From: a virus
Strand: one strand, 5' to 3'
IMG/VR virus record: IMGVR_UViG_3300032213_001637
Coordinates: 45,022 to 109,021 of that record
Length of the DNA stretch: 64,000 nucleotides
Position numbers and translations under genes: made by a program. This document shows, one piece after another, positions 1 to 27,394 of this stretch (the stretch's first letter is position 1; the number at the start of each line of letters is the position of its first letter). Below the pieces are notes generated by a model. That model was not told the origin of the DNA. It ran no database searches and saw only the letters and a program-made list of their open reading frames with translations.

Positions 1-201
1 GTTGATGAATTGGACGTGACTGACCGTGGTGATGGTGGTTTTGGAAGTACTGATATTCCTAAACCAACAACAACCACATCCGCATCTACTGGAAAAAGTA
101 TTGAAGATTTAATCAAACAAAAGGAAGGATATTTTCAAGCTAACGCTCAAAAGTATTCAGATATGATCAAGGAAAGAGACAATAAAGTTTTTGGAAATTA
201 A
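1..201 (+). CDS. C-terminal end of an unidentified protein (5' truncated by window)
   Basis: The reading frame is open to the left edge of the window and stops with TAA at 199-201, so only the last 66 or so residues are present. The visible part has a Gly/Asp-rich stretch, a Thr/Ser-rich linker and a charged helical end (SIEDLIKQKEGYFQANAQKY). No family is recognised. It lies directly upstream of the first glycosyltransferase, with 1 nt between stop and start, so it is probably in the same transcript. The Thr-rich linker and terminal helix could belong to a virion protein, but this is inference. Confidence 0.6.
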   Translation, partial: VDELDVTDRGDGGFGSTDIPKPTTTTSASTGKSIEDLIKQKEGYFQANAQKYSDMIKERDNKVFGN

Positions 202-202
202 T

Positions 203-1519
203 ATGAGTAAACCATTATGTGTTATACAAGGACCAATCTTTAGTCGAAGTGGCTATGGTGATTGGTCCAGAGAAGTCGCTAAAAGCATTCTACGTTACAA
301 TAAGTACGATCTACGTATTGCAACTACCAAGTGGGGTGCCAATCCAATTAAACGTTTTCAGGATGACTTGGATTGTAATGATCCTCTCAATCTTGCATTG
401 TTTGATAAAATGTTGAAGGAACCTTTAAATAGACAACCCGATTTGTTTATTCAAATCGCAATACCAAACGAGTTCAAACCGATTGGCAAATACAACATCG
501 GAATGACAGCTGGTATTGAAACAACAGCTGCTGCTGGAGAATGGATTGAAGGATTAAACAAGATGGACATGAACATTGTTACATCTCGTCATTCCAAAAA
601 GGTATTTGATGAAGCAGACTATACCAAGGAGTATAAGGATGGAAGTGGACGTAAAGAGCAATTACGTAATAACAAACCTATGGAAATATGTTTCTGGGGA
701 GCCAATACCGAAATCTATAAGATTACCAATGAAAAAGTTGAGTCTGTAGAAAAGGTATTAAATCAAATTCCTGAAACCTTTGCGTTCTTGTTTGTTGGTC
801 AATGGACTCACGAAAATCCATTCGCTGATCGAAAAGATATTGGTAACTTGATTAAGACGTTTCTTACTACGTTTAGAAATCGTCCGCAAAAACCATGTTT
901 GATTCTCAAGACAAGTGGAACTAACTACTCCAAAGTTGATAAGGATTCAATTTTGAAGAAGATTAAAGCGGCAGAATCACAGGTTGACGGTGATAAACCC
1001 AACGTGTATTTAATCCATGGAGAACTCAATGATGTTGAAATGAACGCACTATTTAACCATGAAAAGGTTAAATGTCATGTCAGCTTTACACATGGTGAGG
1101 GTTTTGGTCACCCATTGTTGTTGGCATCACTCAGTGGAAAACCCGTTCTAGCTCCAGATTGGAGTGGACATTTGGATTTCTTGGAATCTAACAAAGAAGG
1201 TTTGTTGCAAGGAAAGGTCGATGTTATCGATTCCGCATCAGTTAACCAGTGGTTGATCAAGGAATCTGCATGGTTTACAGTATCATATAGTTTAGCAGAA
1301 GAACGATTGAAACAGTATTATTTCAGTATGAATCAAAGGACTAAAGATAACGCACTTGCATTGTCTGAACGTAATGCTGAACAATTTTCTACACATGCAA
1401 TGGATAAGAAACTACATGAAATTTTAGAAAAATATGTTCCTCAATTTGCGGTAGAACAAAAGATAGTTATTCCTCAACTGAAAATGAATATACCATCTGT
1501 TCCTCAAATTAATGTATGA
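203..1519 (+). CDS. GT-B fold glycosyltransferase (GT4-like)
   Basis: A 438-residue protein that probably transfers a sugar from a nucleotide-sugar donor. The C-terminal half has the donor-site signature of GT4-type enzymes near residues 297-320 (GEGFGHPLLLASLSGKPVLA, followed by a Pro-Asp-Trp-Ser-Gly stretch), and the N-terminus begins with a Rossmann-like strand and a Ser/Gly-rich loop (GPIFSRSGYGDWSRE). A TTG 12 nt upstream is also in frame. I prefer the ATG at 203, which follows the previous stop by one base and has GGAA about 6 nt upstream. It overlaps the next gene by 4 nt (ATGA). The acceptor is unknown. Confidence 0.8.
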   Translation: MSKPLCVIQGPIFSRSGYGDWSREVAKSILRYNKYDLRIATTKWGANPIKRFQDDLDCNDPLNLALFDKMLKEPLNRQPDLFIQIAIPNEFKPIGKYNIGMTAGIETTAAAGEWIEGLNKMDMNIVTSRHSKKVFDEADYTKEYKDGSGRKEQLRNNKPMEICFWGANTEIYKITNEKVESVEKVLNQIPETFAFLFVGQWTHENPFADRKDIGNLIKTFLTTFRNRPQKPCLILKTSGTNYSKVDKDSILKKIKAAESQVDGDKPNVYLIHGELNDVEMNALFNHEKVKCHVSFTHGEGFGHPLLLASLSGKPVLAPDWSGHLDFLESNKEGLLQGKVDVIDSASVNQWLIKESAWFTVSYSLAEERLKQYYFSMNQRTKDNALALSERNAEQFSTHAMDKKLHEILEKYVPQFAVEQKIVIPQLKMNIPSVPQINV

Positions 1520-2166
1520 AACCGTTTATTTCGTATTTAGTTACTTGTCATAATGAGGGTGTGCAACTGCGTGCCCTTTTATCTCTTCTTTTAAAGTACT
1601 CAGAAGGAAATCAAATTGTAGTATTAGATGATTATTCTACAGATCCAATTACTTTAGAAGTATTACATGAATATCAATCAGTTGTTGGTGTTAAATTGGT
1701 TGCACACCATCTCAATAAAGATTATGGTACACATAAAACTTATGGCACACAACAGTGTGACGGTGAATATGTGTTTCAAATTGACGCAGACGAATTGCCC
1801 AGCGAAATTTTGTTGGCTAACTTATACGAACTTCTCAGATCAAATCCAAAATGTGAAATGTTTTGGGTTCCACGTGTAAATAATTTCATTGGTGTAACCC
1901 CAGAAGATATCAAAAATTATGGTTGGCAAGTAAATGAAAAAGGTCACGTCATGTGGCCAGATTATCAATCTCGTATATACAAAAACCAACCGAATATTCG
2001 GTGGGAACGTAAACTACATGAAACCATCATAGGATTCAAAGAGTTTACACGTATTCCCGCAATGGAAGAATTGTCGTTATATCACACCAAGACAATTGAA
2101 AAACAACGTAACGATAACAAGAGATACATGAATGAATTTTCACTAGAAGATAATGTTAGAAAGTAA
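1516..2166 (+). CDS. Family 2-like glycosyltransferase (GT-A)
   Basis: A 216-residue protein beginning with the typical GT2 opening (ISYLVTCHNEGVQLRALLSL), followed by VVLDDYSTDPT-like strand-loop residues and a DAD metal-binding motif at about residues 90-92 (QIDADELPSEIL). This is the nucleotide-diphospho-sugar transferase core. It is short for GT2 and has no C-terminal membrane segment, so it is probably cytoplasmic. The start ATG overlaps the preceding stop by 4 nt. The next gene starts 2 nt after its stop. The sugar and acceptor cannot be told. Confidence 0.8.
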   Translation: MKPFISYLVTCHNEGVQLRALLSLLLKYSEGNQIVVLDDYSTDPITLEVLHEYQSVVGVKLVAHHLNKDYGTHKTYGTQQCDGEYVFQIDADELPSEILLANLYELLRSNPKCEMFWVPRVNNFIGVTPEDIKNYGWQVNEKGHVMWPDYQSRIYKNQPNIRWERKLHETIIGFKEFTRIPAMEELSLYHTKTIEKQRNDNKRYMNEFSLEDNVRK

Positions 2167-2168
2167 TC

Positions 2169-2885
2169 ATGGAAAAGACACCCGTATATTGTTTATATTC
2201 ATCACAGATGGACGAAATATTTCACAGACATTTCCATCCGTCTTTTATAAAGTTTAATAAATATAATTATGATCTTCGTATCTTTGAAACCAATGTTAAT
2301 GGAAACGGAGATTATAATACAGATGAATACATTGAATGTTTACACAATAAAACAAGGTTGATGTTACATACTACAAAAGAAAATCTTGGTAGAACAATAA
2401 TATGGACCGACATTGATATTAAGTTTTTCTCTACTATTGATTTAACATCGTTTGATAAAACATTTACGGCGTTAAAAGAAGATGAAAATCCATCAGATAC
2501 CTTTGTAAATCCAGCATTTTGTAAAATAGAATGTAACGATATAATGGTAGATTTTTTTGAAAAACTATTAATTAGTTGTAAAAATAATGATGTACATGAT
2601 ATGGATGTTATCAATTACTTTGCGGATACCATTCCTAGTATCGAAGTTGGTACATTTGATTTTCGATATCTTCAATACACATCATTGTCATATAGAAATG
2701 ATACAATCCAATGTAATATATGTTCAAATAACCATGGATGTTATAAATGTACACATCAATTATCAAATTTAGATACAATTGACACGTCAAAAATAATACT
2801 TTATCATGCAAATTGTACAATTAACACCGATAGAAGTACCAGCATGGAACTAAAACTAGAACAACTAAACTATCTATCAAAATGA
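2169..2885 (+). CDS. Putative GT-A glycosyltransferase with DXD motif
   Basis: A 238-residue protein. The recognisable element is TDIDIKFF at about residues 80-87, a DXD-type metal/nucleotide-sugar site preceded by a hydrophobic strand (RTIIWTDIDI), as in nucleotide-diphospho-sugar transferases. The C-terminal third is Cys-rich (several Cys between residues 178 and 220), which could be structural or metal-binding. Family membership is not certain. The placement inside the glycosyltransferase operon, with a 4-nt overlap with the fucosyltransferase-like gene, supports a role in glycan assembly. Confidence 0.6.
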   Translation: MEKTPVYCLYSSQMDEIFHRHFHPSFIKFNKYNYDLRIFETNVNGNGDYNTDEYIECLHNKTRLMLHTTKENLGRTIIWTDIDIKFFSTIDLTSFDKTFTALKEDENPSDTFVNPAFCKIECNDIMVDFFEKLLISCKNNDVHDMDVINYFADTIPSIEVGTFDFRYLQYTSLSYRNDTIQCNICSNNHGCYKCTHQLSNLDTIDTSKIILYHANCTINTDRSTSMELKLEQLNYLSK

Positions 2886-3694
2886 TTACAGTTACAATAG
2901 GATCAAATGGAAGGTTTGGCAATCAAATGTTTCAATACGCATCGTTGATGGGTATTGCAGACAAACAAAATTGTTTATACGGCGTTGATTATTCAGGTGA
3001 AAATACAATACCGTGGAATGAATTTACAGATAATGAAATTATTAACAAACAAACGTTTGTGTTGCCAAAAGCATTTCAACTATCTGCATTACAATGTAAT
3101 GAAAAGTATCGAATGGTTCATGAAGGACAACACTTTCACTTTAACCAAGACCTTTTTAAAATTGGTGATAATGTACATCTTCATGGGTATTTTCAAACCG
3201 AAAAGTATTTTAAACACATAGAATCTAAAGTTAGGTCGGAATTTACATTTAGACCAGATATTGTCAATACAGTAAATGACTATTTAAAAAATAAACAATC
3301 ATATGAAACTGTTTCTATTCATGCTCGTAGAGGTGATTATGTACATTTGTCACATCATGGTACATGTGATTTAACATACTATACCAATGCCTTAAGTCAT
3401 TTTACGGACAAATCATATAATTTTATAGTTGTATCAGATGATATTGATTGGGCAAAATCAACATTTAGTGGATGTGATAACTTTTTTGTGTCAGAATATC
3501 GTAACCAATTTGTTGATATGTGTATTATGACTCAATGTAATCACAATATTATTGCTAATAGTACATTTAGTTGGTGGGGAGCGTGGTTAAATGCAAATCC
3601 AAATAAAAAGGTTATTTCACCATCACGATGGTTTGGTCCAAATGTTCTCTTAGACACAAAAGATTTATATATTCCAGATTGGATTATAATATGA
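2882..3694 (+). CDS. GT11 alpha-1,2-fucosyltransferase-like protein
   Basis: A 270-residue protein with the hallmarks of GT11. The N-terminus GRFGNQMFQYA is the family opening. The GDP-fucose-binding HARRGDY motif is at about residues 147-153, and the family signature STFSWWGAWL is at about 227-236, followed by a Pro-Ser-x-Trp-Phe-Gly end. Length matches the family (about 270-300). Known members transfer L-fucose from GDP-fucose to galactose-containing glycans. No GDP-fucose synthesis gene is visible here, so the donor would come from the host or from another part of the genome. It overlaps the genes on both sides by 4 nt. Confidence 0.92.
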   Translation: MITVTIGSNGRFGNQMFQYASLMGIADKQNCLYGVDYSGENTIPWNEFTDNEIINKQTFVLPKAFQLSALQCNEKYRMVHEGQHFHFNQDLFKIGDNVHLHGYFQTEKYFKHIESKVRSEFTFRPDIVNTVNDYLKNKQSYETVSIHARRGDYVHLSHHGTCDLTYYTNALSHFTDKSYNFIVVSDDIDWAKSTFSGCDNFFVSEYRNQFVDMCIMTQCNHNIIANSTFSWWGAWLNANPNKKVISPSRWFGPNVLLDTKDLYIPDWIII

Positions 3695-4521
3695 AAATTC
3701 CAACAGAAATTCAAACAATACAAAAAGCAAAAACAATCACGGATGGATTGATTCCATTACAAGAGTGTACGTTTATTATACCCGTTTGCATCGAAAGTGA
3801 AGATAGAAAGAAGAACTTTACTATTATATATGATTATCTACGTCGTAACTTTGAAACAAACATTATTGTATACGAATGTTCCAAAGAACCTATCGTTTCA
3901 TCTTTGATTAAAGATGATGTAACTTATATACATCAAAACATCCCAGATGAGTCATTTCATAGAACACGGTATCTAAACCGAATGTTAGCGTTATCAAACA
4001 CCACAGTTACGGTAAATTATGACGCAGATGTAATTCTACCCATCGAATCATACCTAATGGCATACAAAAAAATAACTCGTCAAAATCATGATTTGGTATA
4101 TCCGTTTGCTATTGGAAAATTCCAAAAGAAAGTTGATGCATCTGGAAGAGAAAAGTTGTTAAATCAATCATCTGTTGTAGAACTTACACCTCAAGATTAC
4201 TCAGAGTGTGTTGCAGAATATGGTCACTGTCAATTTTTCAAAACATCATCTTATAAAAATTATGGTTGGGAAAATGAAAACTTTATATCGTATGGTCCAG
4301 AAGATAGAGAACGATATGACAGATTCAAGAAGTTTAATACCGTGGTTACGCACCTTGATAAAGGGTTTGTATATCACATCGAACATAGTCGTGGATCAGA
4401 CTCCAGCGAAAAAAATCCTTATTTCAAATCCAACAATGATTTATATAAAAAATTGAGTGATATGAATCAAGATCAATTAAATACCTATTATAACGGCGTT
4501 GAGTATTTGAAGAATTATTAA
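3691..4521 (+). CDS. GT-A glycosyltransferase, galactosyltransferase-like C-terminal motif
   Basis: A 276-residue protein. An upstream in-frame GTG at 3628 exists, but the ATG at 3691 overlaps the fucosyltransferase stop by 4 nt and is the better start. A DAD motif sits at about residues 111-113 (NYDADVILP) and an acidic motif GPEDRERYDRF at about 202-212. The latter resembles the acceptor-side GxEDxxR element of GT7/chondroitin-synthase type galactosyl/GalNAc transferases. Family assignment is inferred from these two motifs only. Three bases separate it from the GT6 gene. Confidence 0.7.
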   Translation: MKIPTEIQTIQKAKTITDGLIPLQECTFIIPVCIESEDRKKNFTIIYDYLRRNFETNIIVYECSKEPIVSSLIKDDVTYIHQNIPDESFHRTRYLNRMLALSNTTVTVNYDADVILPIESYLMAYKKITRQNHDLVYPFAIGKFQKKVDASGREKLLNQSSVVELTPQDYSECVAEYGHCQFFKTSSYKNYGWENENFISYGPEDRERYDRFKKFNTVVTHLDKGFVYHIEHSRGSDSSEKNPYFKSNNDLYKKLSDMNQDQLNTYYNGVEYLKNY

Positions 4522-4524
4522 GTT

Positions 4525-5235
4525 ATGAAGATTGCCATTATTACGTTAGCTACTAATAAATACAAATCGTTTTTACACCCGTTGTGGACATCGGTTAAAA
4601 CACACTTTTTGCCAAGTGCACAAAAAGATTTTTACTTTTTTACGGATGAAAAGTTAGAATGGTTTGACGACTCAATTAAATGGTGTCAAATTGACCATCA
4701 ACCTTGGCCATACATTACATTAAAACGTTTTGAGTTTATATCATCGTATCTAAAAGAACTAACTCAATATGATTATGTATTCTATGTCGATAGTGATATG
4801 GAATTTGTAGATACATTAAGTCGTTTTGATATTGGAGATAAAAAATATTACGCTGTTTGTCATCCATCTGTTGTAGCTAATTTAAACTTCTGGCCTGTTG
4901 AAACCAATTCTAATTCAACCGCATATATTCCAGAACGTCACCGTTGTGTTTACGTTCAAGGATGTGTGTGGGGTGCAAAAGGAAGTCACATCGAATATAT
5001 GGTCAGTTTGATGAAGAATAACATCAATATAGATCTTCAGAACGATATCATTGCGGTATGGCATGATGAATCTCACCTTAACAAATTCATAGTTGATCAT
5101 CGAACCGAAGTAGCTATTTTGAGTCCTAGTATGGCATATCCAGAACATTGGAATTTGCCTGTAAATAAATTGATGATACATAAAGATAAGAATATGGTTG
5201 AGTATCCAAGATTCAAAGGAGCCTCACCAACATGA
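4525..5235 (+). CDS. GT6 family glycosyltransferase (histo-blood-group ABO / alpha-1,3-GalT-like)
   Basis: A 236-residue protein with the two diagnostic GT6 elements. The first is a metal-binding DSD at residues 89-91 in YVDSDMEF (DVD in mammalian enzymes). The second is WHDESHLNKF at residues 179-188, nearly identical to the WHDESHLNKY signature of alpha-1,3-galactosyl/GalNAc transferases, followed by a LSPSMAYPEHW stretch. It lacks the vertebrate membrane stem and is therefore a bare catalytic domain, as in bacterial members. Known GT6 enzymes add Gal or GalNAc alpha-1,3 to a galactose that is often fucosylated, which fits the GT11-like gene two genes upstream. Confidence 0.93.
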   Translation: MKIAIITLATNKYKSFLHPLWTSVKTHFLPSAQKDFYFFTDEKLEWFDDSIKWCQIDHQPWPYITLKRFEFISSYLKELTQYDYVFYVDSDMEFVDTLSRFDIGDKKYYAVCHPSVVANLNFWPVETNSNSTAYIPERHRCVYVQGCVWGAKGSHIEYMVSLMKNNINIDLQNDIIAVWHDESHLNKFIVDHRTEVAILSPSMAYPEHWNLPVNKLMIHKDKNMVEYPRFKGASPT

Positions 5236-6194
5236 AAATAGTTATTTGGGGTCATCCTCTATATTCACATACTCATTCGTATGTTCATTCTTCATACTAC
5301 AAAGCATTATCTCATATGGGTCATGAAGTACATTGGTTTCATGACAAAGATTATCCCAAAGATTTTGACTATTCCGATTGTATTTTTATCACCGAAGGAT
5401 TTGCGGATCAGAACATTCCTCTAAATAATACAAGTACATACTTTGTAATGTATTGTCCGTCACCAAAAAAGTATTTGGAAGCGGGTGTTAAACGTTATAT
5501 TGACGTTAGATGTGTAGCAAAAGATCATAAAGATCACATACACGAATACTCAATAGATAAAACAATAACTCAAAAGGTTGGTCCATCATGTTATTATGTA
5601 CCAAAAACCAACCAACAAGTACACATAAAAAACAATTATGTAGATTACATCATTGATGATTTTGATAAGTTTTACTTGAGTTGGGCAACCAATTTATTGC
5701 CTGAAGAATTTAACCTCGACGACGTTTATCTTCCCAGAGAAAACGCAATTTATTTCTGCGGAAGTCTTTCCAATTCAGGTGTATGTGAAAACATGAGCAA
5801 TTGGCTTCCATTTATGCAAGAGTGTAAACGTAATAATATCACGTTTTATCACAACGATCCATGGAAAAATCCTTTGTCAGATGATAAAGTAAAAGAACTT
5901 GTTCAAAAATCATTATTGGGAATTGATATTCGTGGACCAGAACACGAAAGAACTGGCATCATTACATGTCGAATATTTAAAAACGTCAGTTATGGTCATT
6001 TGGGATTGACCAATTCCAAAGAAATATACAATGAAATGGAAGGAAATTGTTTATACAATCCAAATCCATCAGAGTTGTTTAATATTGGTATACGAAACCG
6101 AACAAACTATGATTTCATCAAAAAATCAATGTTGTATGTAAAAGAGAATCATACTTATGTGAACAGAATTAATAGTCTATTTTCAATTTTATAA
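5232..6194 (+). CDS. Putative glycosyltransferase (GT-B-like)
   Basis: A 320-residue protein that opens like a GT-B N-terminal Rossmann domain (MKIVIWGHPLYSHTHS, then a GHEVHWF stretch near residue 35). The C-terminal part has features of the donor-binding half: YFCGSLS near residue 175, and ERTGIITCRIFKNVSYGH, which resembles the KxFxxxxxG segment seen in spore-maturation/CgeB-like transferases. No textbook catalytic motif is certain. Operon position, with 4-nt overlap upstream, supports a sugar-transfer role. Confidence 0.55.
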   Translation: MKIVIWGHPLYSHTHSYVHSSYYKALSHMGHEVHWFHDKDYPKDFDYSDCIFITEGFADQNIPLNNTSTYFVMYCPSPKKYLEAGVKRYIDVRCVAKDHKDHIHEYSIDKTITQKVGPSCYYVPKTNQQVHIKNNYVDYIIDDFDKFYLSWATNLLPEEFNLDDVYLPRENAIYFCGSLSNSGVCENMSNWLPFMQECKRNNITFYHNDPWKNPLSDDKVKELVQKSLLGIDIRGPEHERTGIITCRIFKNVSYGHLGLTNSKEIYNEMEGNCLYNPNPSELFNIGIRNRTNYDFIKKSMLYVKENHTYVNRINSLFSIL

Positions 6195-6197
6195 TTT

Positions 6198-6803
6198 ATG
6201 TTTAGATCACAAGCACATCAAGATCAATTTGCACACAAGATTCTAAATGGAAAACACAATGGTTATTTCGTAGACATTGGAAGTTGTGGTGCAGTAGATC
6301 ATAACAATAGTTACTTTTTTGAATCCATCGGATGGAAAGGTATTTGCGTTGAAATCGAAAAAGGATACGCTCCTACATATTCATCAAGGACATGTCAATT
6401 TATAAATCAAAACGCACTAACAGTTGATTATAAAAATCTATTCGAAAGTCTTTCTTATCCATCTGTGATTGACTACCTCTCACTTGATATAGACCAATTT
6501 AGTACTGACGCTCTTAAATTGTTACCACATGACTCTTATCAATTTAGCGTTATTACTATTGAACATGATGCATACATTTATGGAGACACATTTCGTATAC
6601 CACAACGTGAATATCTAAAAAATCTTGGATATCATCTATTAGGATCAAATGTACGTGTTCCAGATTTACATTTTAAATCATTAAGTACATTAAATCATTT
6701 GAATAATAATGGGTTTGAAGATTGGTGGGTACATCCTTCTTTGAATAAAAATAATTACTATTTCGAAAGTTCATTTCCAGAAAATCTAATTGCACAATTG
6801 TGA
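6198..6803 (+). CDS. FkbM-type SAM-dependent methyltransferase-like protein
   Basis: A 201-residue protein. The N-terminus AHQDQFAHKILNGKHNGYFV leads into the SAM-binding Rossmann loop (FVDIGSCGAVDHNNSYF, from about residue 24) and a GWKGICVEIE strand whose acidic end would hold the ribose of SAM. A second acidic strand LSLDID follows near residue 95, then ITIEHD. FkbM-like enzymes typically O-methylate sugars or other hydroxyls. It probably caps or decorates glycan in this operon. Start is ATG 3 nt after the previous stop. Confidence 0.75.
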   Translation: MFRSQAHQDQFAHKILNGKHNGYFVDIGSCGAVDHNNSYFFESIGWKGICVEIEKGYAPTYSSRTCQFINQNALTVDYKNLFESLSYPSVIDYLSLDIDQFSTDALKLLPHDSYQFSVITIEHDAYIYGDTFRIPQREYLKNLGYHLLGSNVRVPDLHFKSLSTLNHLNNNGFEDWWVHPSLNKNNYYFESSFPENLIAQL

Positions 6804-7738
6804 AATTATTTTTAGTTAACCATAAAGTAAAAAATTGTGGCGTGTACCAATATGGTAAACGTGTTGCATCTATTATTTCCAAGTCAAAAAACCTAATCGT
6901 TCATTATTTGGAAATGGATAACCGAGATGAATTTAAAAAAGAAGTTGATCTGCATAAACCTCAAGTGATTGTTTATAATCATCTCACAGGTACAATGCCG
7001 TGGGTTGACGGTGAGTATGTTAACCAACTTCGTCAATTGGGAATTAAACAAGGAACTATTGTTCACAATGTTGCGTACTCTACATTCTTTGATTTTTATC
7101 TACACCAAGATCCCAATTATAAACCTAACGAAAACAATTATCGGTTATTGAGACCATTGTTTCAATATACCAACAAGACCAATTTAAATCCAAACAAACT
7201 AAAGATTGGGTCATTTGGATTCGGATTTGCATCAAAACAATATGAAAGTCTATGTGCGTGTATACGAGACAATTTTCATCGAACCACATTTCCAGTTGAA
7301 TTAAGGTTACATCTTACACATTCACATTTCTGTGAAAATTCCAGAGACATTGAAACGATTAAGTTTGTATCAAATAGAATACTAAACAATCCTAATATCA
7401 CTTTGAATATTACCACAAATTTTATCAGTGATGACGAACTGTTGGAATTTCTTGCCGGTAATGATCTCAATATCTTCTTCTATCAAAAATATCCAAGTTA
7501 CAATGGTATATCATCATCCATAGATTACGCATTGTCAGTAAAACGTCCTATTGCGATTTGTCGTAGCAACATGTTTTCACACATTTGGAATACAACTCCA
7601 TCTATTTGCGCCGAAGATTCTTCATTAAAAGAAATAATCAACAACGGTTTTGGTCCTTTAGAACACTATTATAATCAGTGGTCACATTCAAATTTCATTA
7701 AAGTATTCGAAGACAATATTAAAAATGTAGTGTTATGA
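6800..7738 (+). CDS. Putative GT-B glycosyltransferase
   Basis: A 312-residue protein starting at GTG 6800, which overlaps the preceding stop by 4 nt. Residues 1-20 (FLVNHKVKNCGVYQYGKRVA) form the Rossmann opening with a GVYQYG loop, as in GT4-like enzymes that act on a sugar chain. The middle contains IGSFGFGFASKQY near residue 135, the usual position of the interdomain strand. The C-terminus has FYQKYPSYNGISSSIDYALS near residues 230-250 in place of the canonical E-x7-E donor helix. Fold assignment is inference from pattern. Confidence 0.55.
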   Translation: MKLFLVNHKVKNCGVYQYGKRVASIISKSKNLIVHYLEMDNRDEFKKEVDLHKPQVIVYNHLTGTMPWVDGEYVNQLRQLGIKQGTIVHNVAYSTFFDFYLHQDPNYKPNENNYRLLRPLFQYTNKTNLNPNKLKIGSFGFGFASKQYESLCACIRDNFHRTTFPVELRLHLTHSHFCENSRDIETIKFVSNRILNNPNITLNITTNFISDDELLEFLAGNDLNIFFYQKYPSYNGISSSIDYALSVKRPIAICRSNMFSHIWNTTPSICAEDSSLKEIINNGFGPLEHYYNQWSHSNFIKVFEDNIKNVVL

Positions 7739-8481
7739 TAACGTTGGGAGTTTTAGTTACATGTTATAATGAAGTACGAGCGGTAGAATATTCCTTAACA
7801 TATTTCAGGAAAATATACCGCTCTACAAATATTTACCTTACCACCGAAAGTCACGATTCAGACTACAATAGTTTATTGAATCTAAATAACATTAGTATCA
7901 ATCATGTTGACGATACAATGTATTTTATAAAAGAAGTCACAGATCAGAACTTTTTAGAGCCATATTTTCAAGAAAAAATACTATTTGCAACACGATCATT
8001 CTTAAATCGTGTCAAACAAGCAATTGAATACTGTCAAAGTGATTATTTGTTATTAATGGATCCTGACACCCTTGTTCGTGGACCATTATCAATTCCACAA
8101 GGAGCCAAGTTATTAGGATCTAGAATAAATTGGGGATTGCCTATGGCGTTGAGAACCATATTGACACAAACACCCGGCGCAATTGATATTAACTGTTGGG
8201 GAGCAACTCCAGCAATAATTCATTGTGATACTTTTTTGAAATCATATAAGTATGTGATGGAACAAGATCCAACCTTTTTACCACGTATTGCAAAAACGTT
8301 TTATGCTATTTTTGCACATGACGTAATTCTCCCAATTTTATTTGCATTACAAGGAGAGCAAGAAATATTTAATAGTCAGATTATCGAGTGTGGTCGATAT
8401 CCGTATTGGCAACAAACATCACATCCAATAGTACATCAATTTAAATATTTATATGACAACAATCGTAACATCGTTTATTAA
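7735..8481 (+). CDS. Putative GT-A glycosyltransferase
   Basis: A 248-residue protein with a GT2-like start (LGVLVTCYNEVRAVEYSL). A DPD motif in DYLLLMDPDTLVRGP (about residues 103-117) would be the metal and nucleotide-sugar site. The later part has INCWGATPAIIH and a His/Asp pair (AHDVILP) near residue 200. It has no membrane segment. It is the last gene before a 39-nt gap (8482-8520), so it ends the tightly coupled first half of the operon. Confidence 0.65.
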   Translation: MITLGVLVTCYNEVRAVEYSLTYFRKIYRSTNIYLTTESHDSDYNSLLNLNNISINHVDDTMYFIKEVTDQNFLEPYFQEKILFATRSFLNRVKQAIEYCQSDYLLLMDPDTLVRGPLSIPQGAKLLGSRINWGLPMALRTILTQTPGAIDINCWGATPAIIHCDTFLKSYKYVMEQDPTFLPRIAKTFYAIFAHDVILPILFALQGEQEIFNSQIIECGRYPYWQQTSHPIVHQFKYLYDNNRNIVY

Positions 8482-8520
8482 CGGTATACTACAAATCGGT
8501 GTAAATGTTACATAAAACTT

Positions 8521-9339
8521 ATGAGTAAATTATCTGCTGTATTTATTGGAAATTGTCAAAATTCTGGAATTGTTACTTATCTTAAAAAGAACAAAGAATT
8601 TGCAGACAATTACGAGGTAAAAATTTACGCAAATTGGGAAATGATTAAAAATAAAGATTCTTTGCCGATCAAAGAATTATTAACTGCTGATTTATTTGTG
8701 TATCAACCATTACCCGATATATATGGCTGTTATTCTACAGATCCAACCGTCCCCGATTCTTTAATTCACTATTTAAAGTCATCATGTATTCAAATTTCGT
8801 ATCCATACGTATTTAACTCAGCATTATGGCCTATATATCAAAAAGGACATGAACAAAATTCTTGGTTTGGAGATAGTGTTATAAATAAATTGTTATTATC
8901 AAAAGCAACTCATGATGATATAATTAAACTATATCAATCAAATCAAATTGATTGGGAATATGAAAATAGGTTCAATGAATCAATGTCAATTCTAAAAACT
9001 AAAGAAATTATAACCGACGTAAAGATTTCTAATTATATCGAATCAGAATTACAAAATCGTCTTTTGTTTTTAATTCCACAACATCCTACAAGCATTATAT
9101 TTTTAAACATGGTTAATCAAATTTTAACAAAACTAAAAATGAATCAATTAAATGAGGATGTTATATTAGACAAAAATGAAACAAAATTACCAGACTCAAC
9201 ATATAACAATCCCAATGGAATGTTTCCAATTCACGCATCAGTAATTAATCATTATGGATTAAAAAACTGTGATGGTTATGTACTTGATGCAAATCAGTTT
9301 TATTTGGATAAACTTATAAAATATATAAATATGTTATAG
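8521..9339 (+). CDS. WcbI-family polysaccharide biosynthesis protein (putative acyl/acetyltransferase)
   Basis: A 272-residue protein with the GNCQ motif at residues 10-13 (FIGNCQNSG), preceded by a hydrophobic strand, and an ADLFVYQPLP stretch near residue 60. These are the recognisable elements of the WcbI domain known from capsule clusters, where it is proposed to bind acyl-CoA and acetylate the polysaccharide. The C-terminal half (beyond about residue 130) is low in recognisable motifs and Asn/Lys/Ile-rich. It is separated from its neighbours by short AT-rich gaps, unlike the other operon genes. Confidence 0.75.
   Translation: MSKLSAVFIGNCQNSGIVTYLKKNKEFADNYEVKIYANWEMIKNKDSLPIKELLTADLFVYQPLPDIYGCYSTDPTVPDSLIHYLKSSCIQISYPYVFNSALWPIYQKGHEQNSWFGDSVINKLLLSKATHDDIIKLYQSNQIDWEYENRFNESMSILKTKEIITDVKISNYIESELQNRLLFLIPQHPTSIIFLNMVNQILTKLKMNQLNEDVILDKNETKLPDSTYNNPNGMFPIHASVINHYGLKNCDGYVLDANQFYLDKLIKYINML
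9324..9331 (+). promoter_or_regulatory. T4-type late promoter-like octamer TATAAATA
   Basis: An exact TATAAATA octamer overlaps the 3' end of the WcbI-like gene, 31 nt upstream of the ATG of the HtrL-like gene and in the same orientation. T4 late promoters use this sequence as their -10 element. It is the only copy I found placed in sense orientation upstream of a gene. The local AT-richness means chance occurrence cannot be excluded. Confidence 0.35.
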
Positions 9340-9362
9340 TATTTACTATTAAAATAATAATT

Positions 9363-10112
9363 ATGACAACAATAGTTACAGCGTTATTTGATATTAACAG
9401 AAAACAATACGGCGACGGACGGTCATTTGAAAAATATTTAGAATGGCTTCCGGAAACATTATCATTATCTTCAAATTATGTTATCTACACTGAAGATAAA
9501 GTTGTACCATATATTCCAAAAAAAGATAACATCAAGGTTATAGTTTCATCATTGGAAGAAGTTCCACTATATCACAAACACGATCAAATTGAATCAATAC
9601 TTAAAAATCCAGAGTATTTAAACAAAATTAAAGATCCTCACCGCGTTGAATGTGTTTTACCGTTATATAACATAATTCAATATTCAAAGTTTGAATGGTT
9701 AAAACGAACAATCAAAGAAAATCCATTCAATTCATCATACTTTTTTTGGATGGACGCTGGGTGTAGTCGTTTTTTTGATAACCTCCCAAACTCTTTTCCC
9801 AATCCAGATAAACTTCCACCCAAGTTTTTGATTCAAGGTAATGCCAATACTAATAGAATTGTTATTGACGATAGTTACAAATGGATGTCAGACTGTGTAT
9901 TGGTAGGCACGTTCTTTGGAGGTCATTACGAATACGTAACCAAGGTTTCTGATCTCACGTTACAGTTCTTACAAGAAGAAATGTTGGATCAAAATATGAT
10001 TAATAACGAACAAATTGCATTAGCTTACATTTGTAAGCGTAATCCATCATTGTTTAATGTATATATACAGTTGAACGGACAACACTTACCCGTGTTAAAA
10101 ATACTTGTATGA
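9363..10112 (+). CDS. HtrL/YibB-like glycosyltransferase
   Basis: A 249-residue protein with the opening TTIVTALFDINRKQYGDGRS and the strongly conserved WMDAGCSRFF at residues 129-138. That is the metal-site motif of the HtrL/YibB/WlaTC-like family associated with LPS or capsule clusters. A second cluster, LVGTFFGGH, lies near residue 180. The family is thought to be a GT-A type transferase; its donor is unsettled. Overlaps the next gene by 4 nt. Confidence 0.8.
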   Translation: MTTIVTALFDINRKQYGDGRSFEKYLEWLPETLSLSSNYVIYTEDKVVPYIPKKDNIKVIVSSLEEVPLYHKHDQIESILKNPEYLNKIKDPHRVECVLPLYNIIQYSKFEWLKRTIKENPFNSSYFFWMDAGCSRFFDNLPNSFPNPDKLPPKFLIQGNANTNRIVIDDSYKWMSDCVLVGTFFGGHYEYVTKVSDLTLQFLQEEMLDQNMINNEQIALAYICKRNPSLFNVYIQLNGQHLPVLKILV

Positions 10113-10729
10113 ACGAAACATTTTTTGCAGAACATAAAGAGGATCAATTTCTTAGATTAAAATACTTTCCTGATTATAGTTACAAAGGTACTTTGGTTGA
10201 AGTCGGTGGAGCAACTCCCGAGTTTATATCTGTATCTCGTCACTTCACATTAAACGAATGGAGAACAGTTATTGTAGAACCAAATCCTACATTTGCTAAA
10301 CAACACCGTGATATTGGAAATGAAATATACGAATATGCACTATCTGACACTGAGGAAGATGATGTTGATTTTACATTGGTACATATCACCGGAGGCAATG
10401 TCACCGATCACGCATTTTCTTCTTTAAAGATTAAAGACTCATATCAGTCAATATCAAATGGATGGGTGAATAAATTAAATAAAACCCAAATTAAAGTTAA
10501 ACAACGTCGTTTGGACACAATAATTAAAGAAGCGAACATCGAACATATAGACATTCTTTCAGTTGATACCGAAGGTTGGGAATTAGAAGTTATGAAAGGA
10601 CTTAGTTTACTTAGACCCAAGGTAATCATGTTGGAAAATCTATTTAATGAAAACTCGTATCGTGAATATATGACCGAAAGAGGTTATAAGTTTGATACAC
10701 GAATTAAAGACTGTGACATTTATCTATGA
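10109..10729 (+). CDS. FkbM family methyltransferase
   Basis: A 206-residue protein. It shows LVEVGGATPEFISVS (SAM loop, about residues 29-43), VIVEPNPTFA (ribose-binding acidic residue, about 53-62), an EYALSDTEE segment, and the FkbM core ILSVDTEGWELEVMKG near residues 149-164, ending in a MLENLF strand. This is a canonical FkbM layout and a clearer member than the other one in this operon. Expected function: O-methylation of a glycosyl residue. It overlaps both neighbours by 4 nt. Confidence 0.85.
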   Translation: MNETFFAEHKEDQFLRLKYFPDYSYKGTLVEVGGATPEFISVSRHFTLNEWRTVIVEPNPTFAKQHRDIGNEIYEYALSDTEEDDVDFTLVHITGGNVTDHAFSSLKIKDSYQSISNGWVNKLNKTQIKVKQRRLDTIIKEANIEHIDILSVDTEGWELEVMKGLSLLRPKVIMLENLFNENSYREYMTERGYKFDTRIKDCDIYL

Positions 10730-11673
10730 AAATTTCAATTATTGGACCCGGAATTATGCCCATACCTCCTAAAGGATGGGGTGCTGTAGAATCTCTGATA
10801 TGGGATTATAATATCGAATTAACCAAACTTGGTTACGATGTGCAAATTGTCAACACACAAAATCGTCAAGAGATTATTAATCAAGTTAATCAATATAATC
10901 CTGACTTTGTACATCTTCAATACGACGACTTGTTTGATGTGTTACCATATATCAAATGTAAACACAAAGCCGCAACTACCCATTATGGCTACCTAGAACA
11001 ACCACATCGTTACGGTGGATATGCTCGAATCTTTGAAGCATTTCTTCGTGGAGACTTTAACATCATCTGTTTATCAGAAGGTATCAAAAACGTATATAAA
11101 AAATATGGTGCCAATGAAAATAGATTGTACATAGTGTGTAACGGTGCAAGACAAGACATGTTCCGATATACCTCCACGCCATCTAAACCCGAAAAGAGCG
11201 TTTATCTCGCTAAAATCACAGATCGAAAACGTCAGTGGATGTATCAAAACATCAATGACATTGACTTTATTGGCAATAAGGACGATAATCGGTTTAATTT
11301 CTCTCGTCCAAACTATATTGGAGAATGGGATAAGCCTACATTGTATGACAATCTAACCAATTATGCCAACTTGGTATTATTGAGTGATGGAGAAGCAGAT
11401 CCACTTGTGACTAAGGAAGCGTTAATTGCGGGTCTTGGAGTGGTTATTTCAGAATGTTCTGTTGCTAATTTGGACTTGTCAAAACCATATATTAGTGTAA
11501 TATCTGAAGATAAAATTTACGATTTAAACTACATTCGTGGCGTTATTGAAACCAACAGACAACAATCGTTGTTACACCGTGATGAAATTCGTCAATATGG
11601 AATTACTAATTTTGCGTGGGAAAACGTTGTGAAACAATATATTAATGTAGTAAATCAAATTATCTCAAAATAA
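10726..11673 (+). CDS. GT4-like glycosyltransferase
   Basis: A 315-residue GT-B enzyme. The N-terminus contains MPIPPKGWGAVESLIWDY (about residues 12-29), the acceptor-side loop shared with the N-terminal domain of the gene at 58617-60713, so the two are paralogues. LSEGIKNVYKKYG near residue 120 and DGEADPLVTKEALIAG near residues 223-238, in the position of the GT4 E-x7-E helix, define the donor domain. It is followed 3 nt later by UDP-galactopyranose mutase. Confidence 0.82.
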   Translation: MKISIIGPGIMPIPPKGWGAVESLIWDYNIELTKLGYDVQIVNTQNRQEIINQVNQYNPDFVHLQYDDLFDVLPYIKCKHKAATTHYGYLEQPHRYGGYARIFEAFLRGDFNIICLSEGIKNVYKKYGANENRLYIVCNGARQDMFRYTSTPSKPEKSVYLAKITDRKRQWMYQNINDIDFIGNKDDNRFNFSRPNYIGEWDKPTLYDNLTNYANLVLLSDGEADPLVTKEALIAGLGVVISECSVANLDLSKPYISVISEDKIYDLNYIRGVIETNRQQSLLHRDEIRQYGITNFAWENVVKQYINVVNQIISK

Positions 11674-11676
11674 GTT

Positions 11677-12762
11677 ATGTACGATTATTTAATTGTAGGC
11701 AGTGGTATGTTTGGATCAGTGTGTGCAAGAGAACTCACTGATAAAGGTTACAAGTGTTTGGTGATTGAAAAACGCAATCATATTGGTGGCAATTGTTATA
11801 CTGAAAACAAAGATGGTATTAACATTCACAAGTATGGCGCTCACATATTTCACACATCCAATAAAGAGATTTGGGATTATATCAATAAGTTTGCGAAGTT
11901 TAATAACTTTGTAAATCATGTCAAGGTCAATTATAACGGTCAAATTTATTCTTTTCCGGTTAACATGATGACACTGCATCAAATCTATGGAGTAACCACA
12001 CCAGAACAAGCAAAAAAGAAACTAGATGAAGTTCGTATTCACAATGAAAATCCAAAGAACTTAGAAGAGTGGATACTATCGCAAGTAGGAAAAGAAATAT
12101 ACGAAATATTCATCAAAGGATATACCACAAAACAATGGGGAAGACATCCCGTAGATTTACCATCTTCCATTATTAAACGTCTTCCTATTCGATTTACCTA
12201 CGATGATAGTTACTATGGACTTGACTATCAAGGTGTTCCTATCGGTGGTTACACTCAAATATTTGAAAAGTTATTGGATGGAATCGAAGTACGGTTGAAT
12301 GAGGACTATCTTCAAAACAAAGAGTCACTTAACAATGTCGCTAAAAAAGTTATTTATACCGGTTCAATTGATGCATACTATAACTACTGTTTTGGAAACT
12401 TGAACTACAGAAGTCTAAAGTTTGAAACTGAACGAATTGAAATACCGGATTATCAAGGAAACGCAGTTGTCAACTATACAGAACTTCATGTTCCATTTAC
12501 CCGAATTCTTGAACATAAACATTTTGATCCTGTTAATACAAACTTCACCTATATTACACGTGAATATCCAAGAGAATATGGTGAAGGACTTGAACCATAT
12601 TATCCTATAAATGATAAAGTTAATACACCAATATATGAGAAGTATAAAACATTAACTGAAAAAGAATCGAATGTTATATTTGGTGGTCGGTTGGCTGAAT
12701 ATAGATACTATGATATGCATCAAGTGATTGGTTCCGCATTACACACCTGTAAAAAACTATGA
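11677..12762 (+). CDS. glf: UDP-galactopyranose mutase
   Basis: A 361-residue flavoenzyme that isomerises UDP-galactopyranose to UDP-galactofuranose. The FAD-binding Rossmann motif is at the N-terminus (IVGSGMFGSVCAREL, then LVIEKRNHIGGNCY). The family-specific KYGAHIFHTSNKEIWDYI stretch follows at about residues 49-66, with further conserved YTTKQWGRHP near 149-158 and FGGRLAEYRYYDMH towards the C-terminus. The length is typical. It implies that at least one glycosyltransferase in this operon uses UDP-Galf. It overlaps the next gene by 4 nt. Confidence 0.95.
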   Translation: MYDYLIVGSGMFGSVCARELTDKGYKCLVIEKRNHIGGNCYTENKDGINIHKYGAHIFHTSNKEIWDYINKFAKFNNFVNHVKVNYNGQIYSFPVNMMTLHQIYGVTTPEQAKKKLDEVRIHNENPKNLEEWILSQVGKEIYEIFIKGYTTKQWGRHPVDLPSSIIKRLPIRFTYDDSYYGLDYQGVPIGGYTQIFEKLLDGIEVRLNEDYLQNKESLNNVAKKVIYTGSIDAYYNYCFGNLNYRSLKFETERIEIPDYQGNAVVNYTELHVPFTRILEHKHFDPVNTNFTYITREYPREYGEGLEPYYPINDKVNTPIYEKYKTLTEKESNVIFGGRLAEYRYYDMHQVIGSALHTCKKL

Positions 12763-13664
12763 AAATACAAATTGTTACACACCTTCTTCCCCACGAATTA
12801 GATGAATTTGAACGTCAATTGACCGTATTGAGTCAAGAAATGATTGATTGTCATGAAGTTACCTTGGATGTTACATTGAATTTGAACACAGTTGATTGGA
12901 ACAAAACAAAAATTCCAAAGGATTTCTTTATTGAGAAGTTCGAATCATTGTCAAAGTACGTTACTCATACCAGTTGGGCAAGAAACTACATCTTTGATGT
13001 AGATGACCATGGTACTTGTAGAGGGATCAACGACAAACGTCGTAATAGCATACGTAAATACGGTAAAGATGTAGACGCATTTATATACTTGGATTCAGAC
13101 TTGGTATTTCCTCCAGCAACTTTGTCATATTCGATACACTGTGCTACTCAGGTAAAGAACAAATATTATATTATTTCACCTCAAATCACCAAAATTTGGG
13201 ATCAAACATGGGACCATTTGGTAAATCATCAGTTCATTAACAACAAATATGGAAGTGAAAAGACGATCAATCCATATTTTGAAGTCAACCGTAAATCATA
13301 TTTGAATCACATCAATCTTATCAAATGTGATCCTACCAAATTTGGTGGTGGATGGTTCAATTTAATTAGTTCCAACCTATTAACATTTACAGATATACCC
13401 GATGCACTTGGACCCTATGGCGTTGATGATACCTATGTTATGTTCGCGGCTCAAATCATGAAAGTCAATAATATTGATTTCCAACAATATTTAATGGAAC
13501 ACATTATTGTAGCTGAGAACTATTTATTGAGACACAATTCATACAAAGATTACATAACCTATTTCGAAGACAGAAACAACTTCAAAAGCAAGGCGGAGGC
13601 ATCATTAGGCGACTGCCTAAGAGACTTTGTTAACAAAAACCAATACACATTCAAACATCTATGA
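12759..13664 (+). CDS. Putative GT-A glycosyltransferase
   Basis: A 301-residue protein. The best motif is FIYLDSDLVFPPATLSYS near residues 108-125, where the DSD would bind the divalent metal and the nucleotide-sugar. Further on are GGGWFNLISSNLL and GPYGVDDTYVMFAAQ, whose acidic DD pair is at the place of the catalytic base in many GT-A enzymes. Placement right after UDP-galactopyranose mutase makes a galactofuranosyl or similar transfer conceivable, but nothing in the sequence proves it. Confidence 0.65.
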   Translation: MKIQIVTHLLPHELDEFERQLTVLSQEMIDCHEVTLDVTLNLNTVDWNKTKIPKDFFIEKFESLSKYVTHTSWARNYIFDVDDHGTCRGINDKRRNSIRKYGKDVDAFIYLDSDLVFPPATLSYSIHCATQVKNKYYIISPQITKIWDQTWDHLVNHQFINNKYGSEKTINPYFEVNRKSYLNHINLIKCDPTKFGGGWFNLISSNLLTFTDIPDALGPYGVDDTYVMFAAQIMKVNNIDFQQYLMEHIIVAENYLLRHNSYKDYITYFEDRNNFKSKAEASLGDCLRDFVNKNQYTFKHL

Positions 13665-14014
13665 TAAACCTGATAAACATACTAAATACTACATTTATTG
13701 GAGTTGCATTTTTGGTTGTGTGGTTTCATACAGAAGCGTTTCTTGAATACAGTGGTTTGTTTAAAATGAAACGTCTTTTTAAAATAGATGAATTTGAAAA
13801 AGCACAAGAAAACGATTTCAGTTTAGAATACTTACAGTGGATAAAACAAACCTATCCAAACTTCTTCACTAAACTTGTCAATTGCCCGTGGTGTATTGGG
13901 TTTTGGTTTACCGTATTATCTTCATGGATTTTCTCCACGTTTTACATATTTCCCGTAACTTATGTGTTTACACTTGTTATATATTTACTTATCGTAAATA
14001 AGTTTTTTAAATAA
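13661..14014 (+). CDS. Small membrane protein with CPWC motif
   Basis: A 117-residue protein with three hydrophobic stretches: about residues 8-22, 78-95 (IGFWFTVLSSWIFSTFYIF) and 96-114. The CPWCIGFW motif at about residues 73-80 precedes the second one. A Cys-x-x-Cys followed by Gly/Ser-Phe-Trp at a membrane boundary is typical of the small DUF1360-like membrane proteins; that link is tentative. It overlaps the preceding glycosyltransferase stop by 4 nt and may anchor glycan-related steps to the inner membrane. Confidence 0.6.
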   Translation: MINLINILNTTFIGVAFLVVWFHTEAFLEYSGLFKMKRLFKIDEFEKAQENDFSLEYLQWIKQTYPNFFTKLVNCPWCIGFWFTVLSSWIFSTFYIFPVTYVFTLVIYLLIVNKFFK

Positions 14015-14015
14015 T

Positions 14016-14309
14016 ATGATACTGGTTCAAAACTTCACCGAATTTTACAACATATTAAAAACGCACAATGGAATACCCAATTCAGTTTCTAAACTGAAAG
14101 AGTATGTATTATTGGTAGAACGTTTTAAAAATACGTGCAGTTGTAGAGGTACCGAAAAACAACGTGTAAAAAACGAGTGTGAATCCCAATACCGATTATT
14201 GGTTATAACCGAAGTTAGTAACCATATCAATCTATTCAAAAACTCTTTGGGTGATGGTAACATTAAATTTATTCAAAATAATGTTATCATCCAAGAGTTT
14301 AATGTTTGA
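14016..14309 (+). CDS. Hypothetical protein
   Basis: A 97-residue mostly helical protein with no recognised family. It has one CSC pair (about residues 43-45) and a charged middle (CRGTEKQRVKNECESQYRL). It is the last gene of the plus-strand operon, starts 1 nt after the membrane-protein stop, and its TGA at 14307-14309 directly abuts the stop codon of the convergent rmlB gene with no spacer. Confidence 0.5.
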   Translation: MILVQNFTEFYNILKTHNGIPNSVSKLKEYVLLVERFKNTCSCRGTEKQRVKNECESQYRLLVITEVSNHINLFKNSLGDGNIKFIQNNVIIQEFNV

Positions 14310-15272
14310 TTATAGATAACTTTCAATAGTTGTCTTTAAAGCGTTTGAAAAGTCTGTAAGGTTCATTTGTCCAAACTTCTGTTCATAATCAAAGGTCTCA
14401 ATCGAATAACGCAAGTCATGTCCCTTGCGATCTTCTACATAGTTGATATAATCATAGTCGATCTTAGTGTTAGTAACATCTTCATAAACAGATTTAATAT
14501 GTTCAATCAACTCAAGATTGGTTAATTCATTCTTTCCGCCAATCAAATACTGACTTCCTACATCCCCAGTTTCAAGAACGTCCCAAATACAGTTAACGTG
14601 ATCTTTTACATAAATCCAATCACGTACATTTTGACCAGTTCCATATACAGGAATTGGTTCACGGTTTTTCAACTTACGAATACAAGTTGGAATTAACTTT
14701 TCACCATTTTGTCTTGGTCCAAAATTATTGCTACAATTAGTAATGATAGCAGGTAACTTATATGTCTTAACATAACTACGTACAAGTAAGTCACTTGCAG
14801 CCTTTGTGGCAGAATATGGACTGTTGGGTCGATATGGACTATCTACAGTAAATGAAGACTCCTTTGCATTCAATGATCCATACACTTCATCAGTGGATAT
14901 ATGAATAAACTTCTCTACCTTTCCATAATCATATATCGCTTTAATCAAATTAAATGTTCCCAAAACATTGGTGGTAACAAACGGATCGGGAGAATAAATT
15001 GAATTATCAACATGAGTTTCTGCGGCAAAGTTTACTACATGAGTAATCTCAAACTTATTCAACGTCTGCCACAGAATAACACCATCGTTAATATCCGCAA
15101 CATAATGTTTATATCGTGGATCAACATTAAACTGTAAATTCTTATTGGCAGCATATGTTAACTTATCAAAGTTAATGATATTGTCAATATCAGGATTGTT
15201 CAATAACTTCTCTACAAAATGTGATCCTATAAAACCACATCCACCTGTGACTAAAACGTTTTTCTTATTCAT
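14310..15272 (-). CDS. rmlB: dTDP-glucose 4,6-dehydratase
   Basis: A 320-residue extended short-chain dehydrogenase that converts dTDP-glucose to dTDP-4-keto-6-deoxyglucose. Seen: the NAD-binding glycine loop TGGCGFIGSHF at residues 9-19, the HISTDEVYG active-site segment at about 124-132 (Thr, Asp, Glu catalytic set), the YSATK Tyr/Lys pair at 153/157, and NNFGPRQ plus GTGQNVRDWIYV in the substrate domain. It is slightly shorter than bacterial RmlB (about 350). The start overlaps the C-methyltransferase stop by 4 nt. It is part of a four-gene dTDP-sugar operon with rmlA upstream. Confidence 0.93.
   Translation of the reverse strand: MNKKNVLVTGGCGFIGSHFVEKLLNNPDIDNIINFDKLTYAANKNLQFNVDPRYKHYVADINDGVILWQTLNKFEITHVVNFAAETHVDNSIYSPDPFVTTNVLGTFNLIKAIYDYGKVEKFIHISTDEVYGSLNAKESSFTVDSPYRPNSPYSATKAASDLLVRSYVKTYKLPAIITNCSNNFGPRQNGEKLIPTCIRKLKNREPIPVYGTGQNVRDWIYVKDHVNCIWDVLETGDVGSQYLIGGKNELTNLELIEHIKSVYEDVTNTKIDYDYINYVEDRKGHDLRYSIETFDYEQKFGQMNLTDFSNALKTTIESYL
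14314..14335 (+). terminator. Weak hairpin at the convergent junction
   Basis: An 8-bp stem (AGATAACT / AGTTGTCT, one G-U pair) with a 6-nt loop lies within the last codons of rmlB. On the plus strand it is followed by CTTTAAA. It is the only structure near the point where the plus and minus operons meet and could end plus-strand transcription, but the T-run is very short. Confidence 0.3.
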
Positions 15273-16528: not shown

Positions 16529-16529
16529 A

Positions 16530-27393: not shown

Positions 27394-27394
27394 C

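Follow-up and report, generated by a model that had tools for sequence, protein, structure and literature searches.

The subject of this account is a run of sixteen consecutive plus-strand open reading frames (ORFs) spanning positions 203-13664 of a 64,000-nucleotide stretch of viral DNA, hereafter the window, which corresponds to positions 45022-109021 of the 109,021-base IMG/VR record IMGVR_UViG_3300032213_001637 (labelled G000 among its relatives). PHROGs matches of the window proteins identify a phage with a contractile sheath and a tape measure, and the sheath protein is nearest to that of Microcystis phage Mel-JY01 (43.9% identity over 73%). The run, which the original prediction had described from the letters alone as a glycan assembly island, is present over this whole interval and contains the following genes.

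203-1519, plus strand: GT4-like glycosyltransferase, conserved left end (phrog_2170, 54.9 bits; PF00534, 25.7 bits against a cut-off of 26.4)
1516-2166, plus strand: GT2 glycosyltransferase, conserved left end (PF00535, 49.1 bits)
2169-2885, plus strand: no family; absent from relatives G001 and G003
2882-3694, plus strand: GT11, the alpha-1,2-fucosyltransferase family (PF01531, 117.9 bits against a cut-off of 23.9)
3691-4521, plus strand: possible galactosyltransferase-like protein (phrog_15655, 227.6 bits, a family without function)
4525-5235, plus strand: GT6, the blood-group A/B synthase family, of DXD type (PF03414, 83.7 bits against 25)
5232-6194, plus strand: probable GT-B glycosyltransferase with no sequence family (structural model with a predicted local distance difference test score, pLDDT, of 81.7 and a predicted template modelling score, pTM, of 0.84)
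6198-6803, plus strand: possibly methyltransferase-like (no Pfam, PHROGs or NCBIfam match)
6800-7738, plus strand: no family; absent from G001, G003 and G005
7735-8481, plus strand: weakly GT2-like (PF13704, E 0.018, below cut-off; no PHROG)
8521-9339, plus strand: WcbI-like (PF18588, 74 bits)
9363-10112, plus strand: HtrL/YibB family, of "unknown function" in Pfam (PF09612, 74 bits)
10109-10729, plus strand: FkbM methyltransferase (PF05050, 65.8 bits)
10726-11673, plus strand: GT4-like glycosyltransferase (phrog_33732, 377.5 bits)
11677-12762, plus strand: UDP-galactopyranose mutase, near the right end (PF03275, 260.5 bits); absent from G001 and G003
12759-13664, plus strand: possible GT-A-like protein, conserved right end (poor model, pLDDT 55; Foldseek E 1.2e-3)

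Neighbouring genes overlap by 4 nucleotides (nt) at nine of the fifteen junctions if the ATG at 3691 is taken as the start of the fifth gene, which agrees with the claim that such stop/start overlaps predominate; the longer fifth ORF, from 3628, would overlap its predecessor by 67 nt and leave eight 4-nt overlaps. The remaining junctions are four gaps of 2-3 nt and the gaps of 39 and 23 nt that flank the WcbI gene. This gene also has the lowest GC content of the island (26.5%) and is missing from all five relatives compared, a combination of low GC, flanking gaps and absence which suggests an insertion.

The profile searches that had been proposed as a check on the prediction (Pfam and PHROGs) place nine of the sixteen genes in glycan-related families. 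Two more are recognised by fold (5232-6194 and, weakly, 12759-13664) and two weakly by sequence (3691 and 7735), so that most of the genes are sugar-related by profile or fold, and the description of the run as sugar enzymes holds apart from the genes at 2169, 6198 and 6800, for which no Pfam or PHROGs family was found. The WcbI-like protein and the mutase were correctly named, as was one of two claimed FkbM methyltransferases (10109); the second is unconfirmed, and 6198 is perhaps the gene that was meant, its pairwise hhalign comparison with the FkbM gene giving an E-value of 0.003 but a probability of 10.5. The fifth gene, searched from position 3694 with a start at 3628 also open, has weak matches to phrog_1721 (galactosyl transferase, E 9e-5) and PF02709 (GT7C, E 0.0036, under cut-off). 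For the 5232-6194 model the leading structural matches are glycosyltransferases, with SenB first in Foldseek (E 5e-4), and the first ~130 residues of the low-confidence 12759 model resemble GT-A enzymes. Profile searches of the PDB with the 2169, 5232, 6198, 10726 and 12759 genes gave nothing credible, phmmer of the GT11 gene gave no match at E 0.01, and profile-profile comparison of 6800 with GT4 and GT-B alignments gave nothing.

How well is this island maintained? Collinear relatives are available in G001 (126 kb), G003 (134 kb), G004 (127 kb) and G005 (52 kb), with DNA identities of 82.7% over 95.8 kb to G004 and 79.5% over 87.3 kb to G001 and G003, the latter two behaving as one species and not being independent. 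The island lies at the same site in all four, with genes 2169, 6800, 8521 and 11677 lacking in G001/G003, and it is found also in G035-G037, records located through the last island gene, where both ends persist and the middle has been replaced. The gene at 203 is kept in all seven of these records, and the gene at 12759 shows 64-100% identity in ten viral loci. The comparison with related phages, likewise proposed beforehand, therefore gives conserved ends, a swapped middle and a common site, an arrangement like that of bacterial O-antigen loci, and because other contigs show the same gene order and site the island is neither a chance run nor a chimera. Against 50,697 phage records, megablast with window positions 1-14400 found no match. 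The ratio of non-synonymous to synonymous substitution rates (dN/dS) relative to G004 is 0.034-0.140 in the fifteen island genes with a counterpart and 0.045-0.230 in the 18 core genes for which a ratio was obtained, the ratios being rough, with many dS values above 1. We are highly confident that this large phage possesses in the island a working locus for glycan assembly, with swappable content. The predicted pathway for one glycan is upheld as far as a maintained, co-directional assembly locus is concerned, on the strength of order, site and selection; its product may end up on the virion or on the host envelope.

The GT11-GT6 couple bears on the possible product of the island, since the H blood-group synthase is of the GT11 family and the A/B synthases are of the GT6 family. 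In the window a single gene separates the two, and the GT6 protein contains DSD (the DXD motif) and WHDES and matches BoGT6a (E 1.5e-24) and the human ABO transferases (E ~1e-20) in the PDB. The pairing was followed in sets of loci consisting of the best 80 viral TibC, 79 viral GT6, best 80 sheath and best 80 bacterial GT6 loci, drawn from confirmed stretches numbering at least 509 of 599, 419 of 480, at least 571 of 599 and 185 of 241, respectively; selection of the best 80 for each query makes these sets lean towards the query. A GT11 gene accompanies GT6 in 78 of the 79 viral loci, on the same strand in all 78, with a gap below 100 bp in 59 and GT11 preceding GT6 in 75, and the pair is present in 24 of 25 loci after dereplication. 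The comparison sets contain GT11 in 0/80 TibC loci and 2/80 sheath loci. Among bacterial GT6 loci it is present in 54 of 80, so that bacteria share the pair, which is tighter in phages. D-X-D is present in every one of the 79 viral GT6 proteins (L139-L217), as against 26 of the 80 bacterial ones (L418-L497), of which 52 carry N-X-N and two neither; this motif is tied to metal dependence in the consulted portion of PMC3961637, which counted two cyanophages with GT6. The family is found here in 71 phage records, 64 of them named for Synechococcus or Prochlorococcus. Relatives of GDP-mannose dehydratase lie near 44 of the 79 viral GT6 genes and relatives of the GDP-fucose synthase Fcl near 46, with both at 35 (tblastn, E 1e-8, counts which may include related epimerases). 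An ABO-like product of the two transferases is plausible from these family assignments, and the tight pairing, which predicts a definite glycan structure, would be new across phages as far as open-access literature searches on phage GT6 and fucosyltransferases go.

The weight that had been placed on transferases beside the tail genes is strengthened by the other end of the window, which contains the following features.

54420-57728, minus strand: tail sheath (phrog_23, 237.3 bits)
57824-58639, minus strand: short TibC-like protein (TIGR04414, 148.6 bits, below the cut-off of 200; catalytic Asp and four Cys kept)
58617-60713, minus strand: GT4-TibC fusion of the protein O-glycosyltransferase type (TIGR04414, 331.7 bits against a cut-off of 200)
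60710-63115, minus strand: GT4-like glycosyltransferase, a frequent TibC-fusion partner (PF13692, 31.8 bits; PF00534, 30.1 bits)
63140-64000, minus strand: C-terminal part of a fibre-type protein with collagen-like Gly-X-Y repeats, truncated where the contig stops

The fusion protein matches TibC in the PDB (4RAP) with an E-value of 1.7e-70 and 241 bits, and retains the equivalents of Asp110, the residue mutated in 4RB4, and of Cys339, Cys342, Cys358 and Cys370, positions of the catalytic and iron-finger residues that were taken from the part of PMC4358343 available. These five residues are invariant among 31 aligned ORFs; every one of these ORFs hits TIGR04414 at E <=0.001, and 21 hit a GT4-type Pfam model in addition. 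The protein thus shares with the TibC/AAH autotransporter heptosyltransferases (BAHT, TIGR04414) a score over the cut-off, the catalytic Asp and the iron-finger Cys, and differs from them in being fused to a GT4 domain, encoded by a phage and adjacent to tail genes. Both TibC-type genes lie between the fibre and the sheath, and the order fibre, glycosyltransferase, TibC, sheath is shared by G000, G001/G003 and G004. A separate relative of the GT4 gene at 60710-63115 occurs in 41 of the 80 TibC loci. Genes of the TibC type are common in viral contigs; a TibC match was obtained in six of the twelve records examined, the misses including some short fragments and three partial members of the group (G002, G005 and G007), and island and TibC reside together in G000, G001, G003, G004 and G006. 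The fibre ORF of G003 is 4,390 codons long and encodes 1,127 Thr and 1,091 Ser residues, and the Gly-Thr-Ser unit occurs in it 920 times. The G000 record ends, and the G001, G004 and G035 contigs start, inside collagen-like repeats (for the contig starts, at least 8 triplets with any residue allowed at X and Y), and these breaks look like assembly ends caused by the repeats.

The association between TibC and collagen-like sequence extends well beyond this group. Collagen-like is defined here as a run of at least 10 Gly-X-Y triplets, neither X nor Y being Gly, within a stop-to-stop frame of at least 100 residues. Such a run is found in 47 of the 80 viral TibC loci (within 3 kb in 29, on the same strand in 35), in 0 of 79 GT6 loci and in 4 of 80 sheath loci; among sheath loci of at least 12 kb, the four with TibC differ from the four with collagen. 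With dereplicated loci of at least 12 kb the counts are 20/28 for TibC, 0/25 for GT6 and 2/18 for sheath (Fisher p 7e-5 for TibC against sheath), and removal of the window's own group leaves 19/27. Near TibC, 5,296 of the 7,263 triplets (73%) read GTS or GSS. At a threshold of at least 8 triplets the association is seen also in Mel-JY01 and in the 735-kb metagenomic phage LR756501, and not in LR756504. In Mel-JY01 (L004:1-2500) a long plus-strand Gly-Ser-Ser/Gly-Thr-Ser frame underlies "hypothetical proteins" annotated on the minus strand, and the fibre gene seems to be misannotated. The sites identified in the TibC study, in the portion of PMC4358343 consulted, are serines and not threonines, and the word "phage" is absent from its main text. 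Judged by titles, the open-access literature has no apparent phage glycosylation by TibC, and in the part of it covered no link between collagen-like fibres and a glycosyltransferase was found; the TibC-collagen module would accordingly be new as far as such searches go. On the basis of this genomic association, the phage enzymes of the TibC type probably glycosylate collagen-like fibres.

What, then, might connect the island to the tail? Nucleotide sugars would be supplied by the phage's RmlA/4,6-dehydratase/C-methyltransferase/reductase module, by the UDP-galactopyranose mutase, by a GDP-mannose-dehydratase-like enzyme and by the host. The cytoplasmic transferases would then assemble a short hetero-oligosaccharide bearing methyl groups and an ABO-like branch with fucose, and the TibC-type enzymes would place the first sugar on serines of the collagen-like fibre. 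This sugar would be extended by the GT4 domains, fused and neighbouring, and the island would provide or lengthen the glycan, so that the virion carries a phage-specified "serotype". That the island product reaches the virion fibre in G000 by way of TibC priming is a proposition on which the evidence is evenly balanced, and it is weakest at two points, TibC glycosylation of the fibre in G000 itself and the passage of the island's product to the fibre. The wider proposal, in which many phages possess a dedicated O-glycosylation of collagen-like fibres (TibC, in most cases fused to a second transferase and frequently accompanied by a GT4 gene, acting on GTS/GSS serines), here elaborated into a "serotype" by a swappable GT11-GT6 island, is put forward tentatively and should be regarded as somewhat doubtful.

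Several observations weigh against this scheme. With respect to the repeats, 311 of 514 collagen triplets (61%) among the sheath controls are likewise GTS or GSS, which means that TibC loci are not alone in having this type of repeat; in the opposite direction the association is modest, TibC being found in 12 of 120 GTS-repeat stretches, many of them short; and the visible end of the G000 fibre is GAQ-rich. With respect to the island, the distant island-bearing record G009 has no TibC match and neither does any of 24 other GT6-bearing contigs tested (24 of the 79 loci, from the longer contigs), from which it follows that the island can do without TibC. Records of Synechococcus phages match the TibC fusion only at its GT4 part, G035-G037 have GT11 with no match to GT6, the partial G000 record yielded no relative of Fcl, and the three island genes lacking a family stand on the same side.

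The main rival is a reading in which the transferases act in the cytoplasm on the lipopolysaccharide (LPS) core or envelope glycans of the host, blocking superinfection or grazing, with the TibC system a separate matter. Host-surface change is the published interpretation of the P-SSM2 cluster, S-SCSM1 and the pelagimyophages in those parts of the literature consulted, and it suits the O-antigen-like architecture, the presence of the WcbI and HtrL/YibB families, the 0/24 count for TibC in GT6 contigs and the occurrence of GT11 in 54/80 bacterial GT6 loci. A point to the contrary is that no flippase- or polymerase-like multi-pass protein was detected among the 129 ORFs of the record and the 557 ORFs of five relatives, a crude hydropathy result on partial records: five or more non-overlapping hydrophobic segments occurred only in ORFs related to the tape measure, and a 124-residue and a 318-residue ORF that gave 5 and 6 segments with coarser overlapping windows both fell below 5 with non-overlapping ones. 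By the same measure no export or polymerisation protein encoded by the phage was found. A complete polymer pathway is therefore disfavoured, and modification of the LPS core, or export by the host, still fits. Host-surface remodelling is a serious possibility, to which we give appreciable weight, short of an even chance.

Glycosylation of DNA, in which some of the transferases would decorate modified phage DNA against restriction, is very unlikely. It draws on the 5232-6194 model, for which VIA-align places T4 alpha-glucosyltransferase at the top with a Z of 17.1; PimA and BshA, at 16.8, are tied with it, Foldseek ranks SenB first, and having the GT-B fold in common with the T4 enzymes AGT and BGT does not reveal a function. 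The thymidylate-synthase-family gene found (L001:5171-6331; PF00303, 317 bits) keeps the stretch FNIASYA, which we take to be of the thymidylate-synthase type (no search for a hydroxymethylase was made). Cyanomyoviruses show no sign of modified or glycosylated DNA, according to the part of a review consulted (PMC2984593). The notion that the sugar genes are laterally acquired stuffer merely filling a headful-packaged genome, which the accessible part of PMC3037559 raises for the LPS clusters of cyanophages, agrees with the turnover of island content between relatives and is scarcely credible given the kept gene order and the low dN/dS of the fifteen island genes (0.034-0.140, as rough ratios), which is like that of core genes and argues against stuffer DNA.

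The island belongs to the already known kind of cyanophage LPS cluster, and its rarity among phages had been overstated, P-SSM2 having an island that is alike. A review records 24 LPS genes in two clusters for P-SSM2 (PMC2984593, as consulted in part), and further literature on phage LPS islands includes PMC9602691 and PMC7029224, both likewise covered in part. The clusters of P-SSM2, ACG-2014f and S-CAM9 resemble that of G000 as runs of glycosyltransferase and nucleotide-sugar genes in a tailed phage, with GT11 near GT6 and a GDP-mannose dehydratase in the first two and GT11 adjacent to GT6 in S-CAM9; G000 differs in its UDP-galactopyranose mutase, WcbI, HtrL/YibB and FkbM genes, nearby dTDP-deoxysugar module and TibC-type genes. 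In the O86-type O-antigen locus of Escherichia coli, GT11 and GT6 enzymes make a B-like antigen. G000 shares with it the presence of both families in one locus, unlike it in that no Wzx/Wzy-like multi-pass protein was found by hydropathy in the partial record. Virus-encoded glycosylation of virions is known for mycobacteriophages, chloroviruses and mimivirus. These systems would be alike if the G000 glycan is on virions, with different enzymes; a genome announcement, PMC11256854, touches on virion glycosylation in the portion consulted.

The function of phage "LPS clusters" is left open in print, in the accessible part of PMC3037559, the usual assumption being a change of host surface. Purifying selection argues that the G000 cluster works, and the TibC-collagen linkage points to a specific virion acceptor that can be tested; glycosylation of the fibres, if real, could affect adsorption, stability and recognition. 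The question is directly testable because Mel-JY01, a phage with a named host, carries the tail-side module.

Further sugar genes surround the island, beginning with those that follow it directly.

13661-14309, plus strand: two small genes after the island (the first, DUF1360, 24.3 bits against 21)
14310-18245, minus strand: dTDP-deoxysugar module (4,6-dehydratase-like protein, C-methyltransferase, RmlD-like reductase and RmlA)

The two small genes also follow the island in the relatives examined. In the module, RmlA scores 366.7 bits against a cut-off of 360.65 and the RmlD-like reductase falls below the NCBIfam cut-off. The GDP-mannose-dehydratase-like gene lies outside the window, at record positions 12707-13966 (PF16363, 327.1 bits, a model that hits the window's dTDP-sugar dehydratase as well). 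Beside it, at record positions 12293-12694 on the minus strand, is a NifU/IscU-like scaffold gene, recognised by eye, and on the other side of this a GT-A-like gene, also recognised by eye and with no Pfam match.

A scan for tRNA genes found none. A Shine-Dalgarno-like 4-mer lies upstream of 11 of 77 genes starting with ATG, and T occupies position -1 in 68%, features which may hint at the host group. A late-promoter scan for expression timing with TATAAATA was uninformative (14 matches against 7.5 expected, only three of them lying no more than 100 bp ahead of a gene). Immediately before the window, at record positions 43010-44536, the apparent halves of a GT-B glycosyltransferase form separate ORFs by eye, the second alone having a Pfam match (PF00534) and the first none; the split is retained in G001, G003, G004, G005, G035 and G037. 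A dUTPase-like gene, again identified by eye, is also located there. Finally, a second hypervariable sugar locus occupies a fixed site (record 26695-32490; G003:95413-105667) and contains, by eye, transferases together with, in G003, aminotransferase-like and acetyltransferase-like ORFs.

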